A model generated the notes under the pieces. The model was not told where the DNA came from and did not search any database. It worked only from the letters and a program-made list of their open reading frames with translations. This document shows positions 5,637 to 38,819 of a DNA stretch of 64,000 bases, piece after piece. The DNA lies in contig JARYMI010000009.1 of the NCBI GenBank assembly GCA_029907205.1, positions 1 to 64,000 of the forward strand, given 5' to 3'. Position numbers and translations under genes: made by a program. The DNA comes from Clostridiales bacterium (GTDB lineage: Bacteria; Acidobacteriota; Aminicenantia; Aminicenantales; UBA8522). Position 1 is the stretch's first letter, and each line of letters starts with the position of its first letter.

Positions 5637-5820
5637 AGAAGCATCTCCCACTTTGTGATTTTTATGAAGGGTGCAGGAGGCTGCCCTGAAGCCCCCGTAG
5701 CGGAGGGGGGACCCGTCGGCTTCACCGACGGGGGGAACCCACGGGACTGGTTCCCCGGGGTGCGGGGGCCAAAGGGCAGCTTCCTGCACCCTATTGAATT
5801 ACATAAACGGAGATGCTTGC
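5637..5820 (+). mobile_element. MITE-like element, type I core (copy A)
   Basis: Ends AGAAGCATCTCC and (rc) GCAAGCATCTCC; core 5668-5792 closed by AGGGTGCAGGAGGCTGCCC / GGGCAGCTTCCTGCACCCT with internal hairpins; >80% identical by eye to copies B, C and D. Confidence 0.85.
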
Positions 5821-7326: not shown

Positions 7327-7537
7327 CTCTGCCTCCCTTGGGTGATCATTTCCATTTTGGTAATAGAGTGGGGTCCTGTCGTGGTTCACCCCCGGCGCCC
7401 CTTCGCGGACGCATTTGTTAATTATTGGGCCGCAAGTTGTGCGGCATCAAACGCTTGGGTCGGCGGGGGGCCCCCGAACCACGCCACCCCACTCTTCTAT
7501 CCTGGAAGAATATCACATCATCATAAAAGATGCTTCT
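7327..7537 (-). mobile_element. MITE-like element, type II core (copy 3, divergent)
   Basis: Outer stem GAGTGGGG/CCCCACTC, internal loop TGG/ACAGGA (minus strand), inner stem CGTGGTTC/GAACCACG; right end (rc) AAGCATCTTTTATGATGATGTGATA. Confidence 0.65.
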
Positions 7538-7601
7538 CTCCCGTGGTATCAATTTGACCTTTGGCAGGTGGTTTGCTATAAATGGCGGCTCGTTGGAAAG
7601 A

Positions 7602-10299: not shown

Positions 10300-10490
10300 A
10301 GACGCATCTCAAATCTTGTTATTATTTATTGGGCCATGAAAGAAGGGGTGGCACGGCGTTAGTCCCCTCCCGCCCGCAGCGGAAGGGGTTCCCCACGGGG
10401 GGATGGGTGGAGCGAGGACGGAAGGGGACGCGCCGTGACAGGCCCCCTTCTTTCAGACTATCTATCCATCACAGAATTTGCGATGATTTG
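10300..10490 (+). mobile_element. MITE-like element, type II core (copy 1)
   Basis: GAAAGAAGGGG-TGG-CACGGCG ... CGCCGTG-ACAGGC-CCCCTTCTTTC; flanked by GCATCTCAAATCTTG / (rc) TCATCGCAAATTCTGTGATG. Confidence 0.78.
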
Positions 10491-28939: not shown

Positions 28940-29121
28940 GGAAGCATTTCCAAACACGGGATCTTTATGATGGACGCAGGAAGCTGCCCACGAGCCCCCG
29001 TAGCGGAGGGGGGACCCGTCGGCTTCTCCGACGGGGGGAACCGACGGGACTGGTTCCCCGGGGCGCGGGGGCCAAGGGCAGCTTCCTGCGCCCAATTTGA
29101 TCACTTAGGGGAGATACTTAC
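28940..29121 (+). mobile_element. MITE-like element, type I core (copy B) with perfect 9-bp TSD
   Basis: GCCATTTTC at 28931-28939 and 29122-29130 flank ends GGAAGCATTTCC / (rc) GTAAGTATCTCC; core 28972-29093. Confidence 0.9.
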
Positions 29122-29157: not shown

Positions 29158-30714
29158 CTATTCGCAGGAGCGCGTTTCTCTGAACACCGAAAGCCGGTGC
29201 GTGCGGAGGATTTCTATTCCCTGTCGAACATAATCCGCGTCGATGTAAAGCCGTTGGAGCAGCCCGTCGTCGCTCCCCCTGAGGAGTTCAGCCCTCACCG
29301 GCGTCAGACGATGGTGGTAGGACTCGAGGACACGATGCCCGACTCGATACGATGTCCGGGCAACGAGGAAGATGAGGCTCAAAAGAACGGCCGCTGATGC
29401 CACGATTTTGATACGACCTCGAGTCGGCGCCTTCAAACTGAGCCTGCTTTCCCCGAACTGGAGGCCGAGGAAAATGACGTTTGAAAACCAGATGAGGTTA
29501 GAAAAAGTCACATACCGGTAGCTTGTTGCCTGAGCCGCCCCGAAACCCACTCTTCCCATACCGGTCAATGCCGCGCAGGAGATGGAATAAAGGCCCAAGA
29601 GAAGAAAAGGCATGGCAGCCACGATCACCTGGCGGTGTTTCTGCAAGAAAAACCACGCGGCCGAGCCAAAGAGAATGAGGCAGAAAATGCCCAGGAAAAG
29701 CGCAGACTCCGGGTAAGTGATGATCGAAGCGCCTAGGTATCCGAGATTATACCGGACGTATTCAAGGGGATGGATGGCAAAATAAAAGGGCGACTTTCCC
29801 GAGGGGGGAGTCGGCGAAAAGCGGTAAAAATACGACACAAAGACGAGAGCCGTCAAGCCTAACCAGATGGCCAAAGCTGTCCGTTTCCGCCGCCGGCTCG
29901 GTGAGGGAGCGAGCAGGAGAGCCAGGAAGGCGACCGGCCAGTAAGCAAGCCCGTTGGCGTAAGAAAACGTGGCCACGACCCCACAGGCAACACCCGCAGC
30001 AAGATTTCTCCACCTGAATTCAGGCATGGCCAGAATAACTAATCCCATGACGACAGCCAGGACGTTGAGGAAAATCTGGATCTGCCAGCCCCAGACCCAG
30101 TTTTCGCCCTGGTGGAGGGAGAAGGCCAGAAGCGAGAGGATGGGCGCGACCCACGGAAAACCAGGGGAGCCTAAAAGCAAGAATACCTTTTTGGCTTGAA
30201 AAAAAACGATGATGAAAATTCCCACGGCCAGAAGGATGCTGAAGACTAGCTCCCAGCAAATGTTGTAGCGGCTGAGGTGAGAAAACCCAAGCATGATGAG
30301 CCGAGGAAAGAAAAGGCGGTGTTCATTGTGAAGCGCCCAGAGGTCGGAGAAAGAAACCCCTTGTTCAAAAGATTTCCCCAGAAGGGGAACAAAATTCCAC
30401 TGATCCCAGAACGGGACATCCACGTGATATCGGCTGACCTGGGTGGTCAGGATAACCAAAGGAACCAGGGTCAGAGCAATGAGGAAAATTGACCAAACGG
30501 CCTTGAACCATTTCTTCCCATCGCGAGAGCATCTCTGTTTCTGGGAATTGAGGCTATGATCGAGGGAGGGTGGCACGGCGCTAGTCCCCGCAACGCCCGA
30601 AGCGTAGGGGACCCCTCTCTTGACGGGTGCGGAGCGAGGGCGGACAGGGACGCGCCGTGACAGGACCCTATTCCCAAACTCGGACATCACAGAATCAGAG
30701 ATGCTAGCTTTCAT
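29158..30714 (-). CDS. Polytopic membrane protein (glycosyltransferase-like/unknown); true start uncertain because the ORF 5' end is a MITE
   Basis: Many TM segments from KKWFKAVWSIFLIALTLVPLVILTTQ onward; first ~60 codons are translated mobile element. Confidence 0.65.
   Translation of the reverse strand: MKASISDSVMSEFGNRVLSRRVPVRPRSAPVKRGVPYASGVAGTSAVPPSLDHSLNSQKQRCSRDGKKWFKAVWSIFLIALTLVPLVILTTQVSRYHVDVPFWDQWNFVPLLGKSFEQGVSFSDLWALHNEHRLFFPRLIMLGFSHLSRYNICWELVFSILLAVGIFIIVFFQAKKVFLLLGSPGFPWVAPILSLLAFSLHQGENWVWGWQIQIFLNVLAVVMGLVILAMPEFRWRNLAAGVACGVVATFSYANGLAYWPVAFLALLLAPSPSRRRKRTALAIWLGLTALVFVSYFYRFSPTPPSGKSPFYFAIHPLEYVRYNLGYLGASIITYPESALFLGIFCLILFGSAAWFFLQKHRQVIVAAMPFLLLGLYSISCAALTGMGRVGFGAAQATSYRYVTFSNLIWFSNVIFLGLQFGESRLSLKAPTRGRIKIVASAAVLLSLIFLVARTSYRVGHRVLESYHHRLTPVRAELLRGSDDGLLQRLYIDADYVRQGIEILRTHRLSVFRETRSCE
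30525..30708 (+). mobile_element. MITE-like element, type II core (copy 2) with 7/9 TSD
   Basis: AGCATCTCTG/CAGAGATGCT perfect 10-bp TIR; GGGTGGCACGGCG...CGCCGTGACAGGACCC core; flanks TCCCATCGC / TTTCATCGC. Confidence 0.88.
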
Positions 30715-30791: not shown

Positions 30792-30974
30792 GGAAGAAAT
30801 TTCACGCATGAGACCTCCACGATGGGCGCAGGGGGCGGCCCTAAAGCCCCCGTAGCGGAAGGGGGACCCATCGGCTTCTCCGATGGGGGGAACCGACGGG
30901 ACTGGTTCCCCGGGGCCCGGGGGCCGAGGGCTGCCTTCTGCGCCCATGAGAATCACATTAGCAAAAATGTCTGC
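30792..30974 (+). mobile_element. MITE-like element, type I core (copy C) with 7/9 TSD
   Basis: Core 30822-30947 closed by ATGGGCGCAG/CTGCGCCCAT; flanks GGCTTTAAA / CCCTTTAAA; end GGAAGAAATTTC. Confidence 0.85.
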
Positions 30975-38637: not shown

Positions 38638-38819
38638 GGAAGCATCTCTTTTTGTGCGATTACAATCGGCGCCGGAACCACCCTAGGCCCCCGGACCCCG
38701 GGGAACCAGTCCCCTCGGTTCCCCCCGTCGGAGAAGCCGACGGGTCCCCCCTCCGCTACGGGGGCTACAGGGCGGCTTCCGGCGCCCATCGTGAAACATA
38801 CATTTCTGCAGATACTCAA
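38638..38819 (-). mobile_element. MITE-like element, type I core (copy D)
   Basis: End GGAAGCATCTCTTTTTGTGCGATT; core 38668-38786 closed by GGCGCCGGAA/TTCCGGCGCC; no convincing TSD. Confidence 0.83.

Follow-up and report, generated by a model that had tools for sequence, protein, structure and literature searches.

Type II cores in the window

The window, the whole 64,000-nucleotide stretch of Aminicenantes DNA analysed here, contains three copies of a hairpin core, Type II, each within a MITE, along with Type I sister elements (Table 1). The positions given for the Type II copies in an earlier note on this DNA were confirmed by direct reading and by a motif and two-helix scan. When the window was scanned for TGG and ACAGG with an inner and an outer helix, just copies A, B and C were returned, with a total pairing of 12-20 against a maximum of 11 in 30 locally shuffled windows. 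In copy A, T10349 is opposite C10443, a T.C mismatch at what is normally a T-A position. The target duplication of the MITE round this copy is degraded; the family arms and 9-bp duplications are known from other copies. The MITE round copy B (L037) is flanked by the 9-mers TCCCATCGC and TTTCATCGC, which are identical at seven of nine positions.

Table 1. Positions of the Type II cores, their carrier MITEs and the Type I sister elements in the window
Feature	Positions	Strand	Details	Basis
Type II core, copy A	10338..10454	+		direct reading, scan, covariation set
Copy A, outer stem	10338-10348 / 10444-10454		the two stretches are paired	
Copy A, loop	10350-10351 / 10438-10442		GG facing ACAGG	
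Copy A, inner stem	starts 10352, partner 10437			
Whole MITE round copy A	10303..10487	.	degenerate AGCATCTC/GAGATGCT arms, by direct reading CGCATCTC ... GCGATGAT	
Type II core, copy B	30568..30668	+	GG 30572-30573 facing ACAGG 30660-30664	scan
Whole MITE round copy B	30528..30705	.	arms AGCATCTC ... GAGATGCT	inverted repeat I7
Type II core, copy C	7371..7489	-	GG (7484-7485) facing ACAGG (7375-7379)	direct reading, scan
Whole MITE round copy C	7344..7535	-	degenerate arms AAGCATCT ... GGAAATGATC on minus strand	direct reading
Type I sister element	5639..5818	.	arms AGCATCTC/GAGATGCT, different core (GGGTGCAGGAGGCTGCCC), without GG/ACAGG loop	
Type I sister element	28941..29119	.	perfect 9-bp duplication GCCATTTTC (L019)	
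Type I sister element	30821..30958	.		
Type I sister element	38640..38796	.		

Across the genome (3.26 Mb in 132 contigs), BLAST and an exact-motif search revealed about 40 Type II copies, complete or partial. With the copy at 10337 as query, BLAST gave 15 matches, and with that at 7340-7540 it gave 25, partial copies included; the stretches round the hits beyond the window were examined. A scan of GTDB contigs with one exact version of the core found it in two Candidatus Aminicenantes MAGs, and diverged copies are present in relatives from several families of the same order. Searching 297 genomes of the phylum for the 3'-half pattern produced 23 hits in this genome, 27 in G032, 13 in G007, 6 in G026 and 8 in G262, which belongs to another class and has the same loop with different stems. 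Single 3'-half hits elsewhere look like chance, as the ones that were fetched had no 5' partner. Phages, plasmids and IMG/VR viral contigs were searched with zero matches, and the literature search brought up no description of such repeats in Aminicenantes. Tandem arrays of the element were also observed in other genomes, for example at 685-1290 of one locus (L187, G032:C11), where a 293-nt unit is present in 2.1 copies with 95% identity, and at L186, L188 and L189. In G262 (L190, L192), several copies have an identical flank that looks like the end of a gene of permease type; gene ends seem to have been duplicated together with the element.

A constant joint between covarying stems

With GGGTGGC...GACAGGACCC as its sharp borders, the Type II core is a hairpin module that contains an unpaired joint of seven bases in which GG is opposite ACAGG, forming a 2x5 asymmetric internal loop. 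The loop was described in the earlier note as TGG/ACAGGA. Its conservation holds; its extent is better given as GG/ACAGG (2 nt against 5 nt), since in 35 of 42 copies the outer T is base-paired with the A that follows ACAGG. The core spans 53 to more than 200 nt and has a conserved hairpin base, GGGT/ACCC, in nearly all copies, while its apical domain, a few bases long in some copies and over 200 in others, exists in several versions that are not related.

Alignment of 42 copies revealed double changes at 15 of 20 pairs. The double-change cells number 145 against 61 after shuffling, and the covariation score is 0.463 compared with 0.206 for shuffled copies and 0.10-0.18 with slid partners; as the copies, taken from draft genomes, are mutually related, these counts are not independent. 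The helices had been called fully covarying: the covariation is strong, whereas with pairing of 95% in the inner and 83% in the outer helix, "fully" goes a little too far.

Of 40 copies taken from loci fetched by BLAST, for which the loop was not used, 35 have the exact loop. Pairs of copies with at least 12 differing helix positions have a mean difference of 45.7% in the helices and of 4.3% in the loop. Constancy had been assigned to the loop, and for the loop this is borne out; the constant part is larger and includes paired neighbours, GGG:CCC and the first C:G pair being invariant or almost so in the aligned copies. The scan that defined the copies took the loop as a wildcard and fixed the neighbours GGGT, ACCC and C..GG/CC..G within one mismatch (it was used in place of a loose complementarity scan, which gave mostly noise), so that the conservation of the loop is a fair measure and that of its neighbours is partly built in. 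The 3'-half-only hits include 18 distinct copies with a complementary 5' half: GG is present in 15 of these, and GA, GT and AG in one each; for random plants, a 5' partner of such quality was found in 1 of 460. What had been named as refuting the earlier note, namely further copies with an unconserved loop or uncompensated helix changes, was thus looked for, and it was found that the loop is kept and the helices compensate.

Predicted folds contain the exact 2x5 loop in five of seven sequences, with z of -2.5 to -6.6. The covariance model search put forward in the earlier note was run on the window (R1, joined arms) and recovered half-sites only, because the apical insert is not bridged by the model. 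One diverged core, near 1675 on the minus strand of locus L108, has GG/ACATG as its loop; its inner stem (CGCCGACC/GGTCGGTG) is entirely different in sequence and fully paired. Another observation concerns a repeated module, GCGAGGAAACTCGCTCC...TCTTCTCTCGC...GAGAAACC, which is the apical insert in some cores and is also found beside another core (L056, L057, L106, L007).

Wobble pairs were counted among reconstructed changes. At inner and basal core pairs, the GGGTGG strand has ten G.T and two A.C, which are few events, whereas the outer arms, with 21 G.T and 16 A.C, show no strand asymmetry. This asymmetry, the stable folds and an apical version that is nearly identical across three families of the order while the inner stems covary would all suit a structured small RNA, in which the GGGTGG strand is transcribed from many copies spread by MITEs and the loop and apical domain act in trans. 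Nevertheless, the apical domain is missing or replaced in many copies and the gene context (see below) is mixed. Rfam 15 provided no match either: above the gathering threshold it returned only two tRNAs in the window, and for five core-bearing loci only a sub-threshold match to ncS54. Taken together, these observations make a small RNA quite improbable.

Two carrier families and the mobility of the element

The first MITE family that carries the core has the ends AGCATCTC...GAGATGCT and 9-bp target duplications. When the flanks of 27 elements were aligned, a stretch of exactly nine positions, located three bases beyond the arms, stood out with 62% identity, compared with 26% in permuted flanks (maximum 37% in 2000 permutations). 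The 9-bp duplications CCACCAAAA and GCCATTTTC are perfect. Exact GRAAGCATCTCC ends occur only four times in the genome; no recognised transposase lies beside them, and the transposase of this family was not found. Type I repeats, present at about 40 places in the genome, have the same AGCATCTC arms round a core of another kind. At the apex, their CCCGTAGCGGAGGGG is similar to the apical CCCGCAGCGGAAGGGG found in one Type II group, and the two types may therefore share ancestry.

The second family has the ends CCCAAAATTGCCGATAG...CTATCGGCAATTTTGGG, which correspond to the ends of an IS1380-family insertion sequence in this genome. Direct repeats of 4-6 nt, read from the listing, flank six of eight elements. 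With a single offset held fixed, the permutation test gives a weaker result (56% against 32%, with some permutations equally high), because the offset varies. The insertion sequence protein, from a truncated copy, was matched to NF033539 (IS1380 family) with E = 1.2e-13, and nine IS1380-family hits are present in the genome. The insertion sequence ends in CCCTGATTTGCCGATAG, and in a second genome, G042, in CCCAAAATTGCCGATAG, with a remnant end CCCAAAATTGCCGATAGAAAA. IS1380 was also considered as the mover of all copies and was rejected: G007, G026, G018, G262 and G001 carry the core with no detected IS1380 gene, so the core is independent of it. As a side observation, pairing of CCTCCTGGTATAAGGT with ACCTTAACCAGGAGGG is possible in the leader of the IS1380-type element (L127, L137, L213) and would make the AGGAGGG ribosome-binding site of the transposase inaccessible.

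BLAST between the two families starts and stops at the borders of the core (query 52-170), and the core is therefore a cassette with sharp borders. Judged by their sequences, two MITE families with unrelated ends carry the same core. That it appears as the cargo of two different transposase-mobilised families was overlooked in the earlier note, and since both carry it, its dispersal is explained without a transposase that binds the loop. The elements measure roughly 90-330 bp by their arm pairs, and the only reading frames in them are chance ones; thus they are short and gene-less, with terminal inverted repeats and target-site duplications, as MITEs are. The flanking duplications indicate that transposases inserted the elements, and in this sense mobility is shown, as read from the sequence.

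For 27 copies lying between two predicted genes, a simple ORF caller assigned divergent neighbours to 11, codirectional to 11 and convergent to 5. This mixed orientation fits insertion and not termination. Strong hairpins in intergenic DNA, some of them in G262 directly behind apparent gene ends, could be viewed as transcription terminators or insulators at gene ends; yet 11 of the 27 are between divergent genes and only five between convergent ones, and the duplications show insertion, so that such a role is hardly credible. An intrinsic terminator was rejected specifically, as the orientation at gene ends is inconsistent with it.

It is conceivable, though unlikely, that the ancestral mobile unit is the core itself, with GG/ACAGG as the feature by which the hairpin is recognised, and that it entered the centres of existing palindromes and so passed between MITE families. 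Entry into palindrome centres would explain outer stems that are different and still paired. In this connection, the palindrome CACCCGATGGGTG lies at positions 77-89 from the end in the IS1380 leader compared with 73-86 in the MITEs, with dissimilar DNA between; it may be an empty site of the core, which is a speculative lead.

Proposed explanation and comparison with known systems

We propose that the Type II core is probably a gene-less hairpin module of non-autonomous MITEs in Candidatus Aminicenantes and their relatives, the joint of which is recognised on the folded strand; we hold this with somewhat more confidence than doubt. Transposition is carried out by transposases reading the outer ends of the MITE. 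The joint would be kept through recognition of the folded single strand GGGTGG...ACAGG by a protein, this strand being either single-stranded DNA, during replication or transposition, or a transcript, both of which the sequence allows. The stems would need pairing only and so would drift by compensated steps, and the apical part would be free to vary. The wobble asymmetry (10 against 2, few events) is a hint that the GGGTGG strand may be the recognised one. The earlier note had already taken the core for a recognition module: a conserved loop between compensating helices stands, now with dozens of copies in several families of the order, and no binding partner of the joint was found.

The main rival is template switching, a source of compensatory stem changes that the earlier note had overlooked. 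Here the core would be a passive MITE interior with no function, its stems paired by template switching and its loop constant through recency. According to two papers, template switching renders inverted repeats homogeneous and is able to make and maintain RNA hairpins (PMC8604942, PMC8794818), and compensatory stem changes can arise by it at imperfect palindromes without selection (PMC8794818). Long palindromes are usual in MITEs (PMC2229807), and the outer arms have no strand bias, as a passive interior would have it. However, template switching should heal the 2x5 mismatch first, yet this mismatch is the best-kept part of the core. It persists in G262, from another class, with different stems, and the 46% divergence of the helices is at odds with recency. 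The persistence of the mismatch argues for recognition, as far as sequences may do so, without proving it, and we regard a passive interior as possible, if rather unlikely.

If the joint is truly recognised, the copies would amount to a natural collection of dozens of variants of a single folded-strand signal, their stems already randomised by evolution, and the distinction between selected and passive MITE interiors would become testable. The repeats also show that one hairpin cassette is common to elements using different transposases. In an uncultivated group, Candidatus Aminicenantes, the element is an unannotated source of genome change.

Among known systems, REP and BIME sequences with RAYT and the TIRYT of Acidobacteria share with these elements dispersed extragenic palindromes, interrupted stems and the occurrence as singles and tandem pairs (PMC3733652). 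It could thus be imagined that an HUH Y1 transposase reading the hairpin moves the core, as Y1 genes are present in most of these genomes. Nevertheless, the core is larger (53 to more than 200 nt against a 20-40-bp palindrome), its hairpin base is GGGT/ACCC with no GTAG or CGTC tag, and no Y1 gene lies beside any copy examined. At 31 Y1 loci, no core lies less than 1.5 kb away; several Y1 genes carry other inverted repeats, of the GGGGACAC type, as do TIRYT genes (PMC3733652), and the single Y1 gene detected in this genome belongs to an ordinary IS200. A REP/RAYT or TIRYT type of repeat is therefore largely refuted and very improbable. Separately, the Y1 loci of Aminicenantes relatives (L228-L249) include TIRYT-like genes between palindromic inverted repeats GGGGACAC...GTGTCCCC, which match the motif reported for Acidobacteria (PMC3733652).

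Integron attC sites are similar in form only, being hairpins defined by structure, with unpaired features kept, free stem sequence and very variable apical length (PMC2727003). Unlike them, the core has GGGT/ACCC at its base in place of the GTT/AAC R box, there is no cassette array, and the copies lie in MITEs with duplications; with the R box absent, an attC site was not supported. The CIR repeats of Caulobacter are likewise intergenic, about 110 bp long, with motif and fold kept between species (PMC2229807). CIR, however, have a GANTC methylation motif in the terminal loop and two arms joined by a linker, whereas the present element has an internal loop and one long hairpin.

By its ends, size and duplications, the element is a MITE. 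It is short and gene-less, with terminal inverted repeats, target duplications, an intergenic location and a stable stem-loop, as reported for MITEs (PMC10969869, PMC2229807). It departs from them in the high GC content of the core, MITEs being typically AT-rich (PMC10969869), in the constant asymmetric internal loop between compensating stems, and in having one identical, sharply bounded core in two families with unrelated ends.
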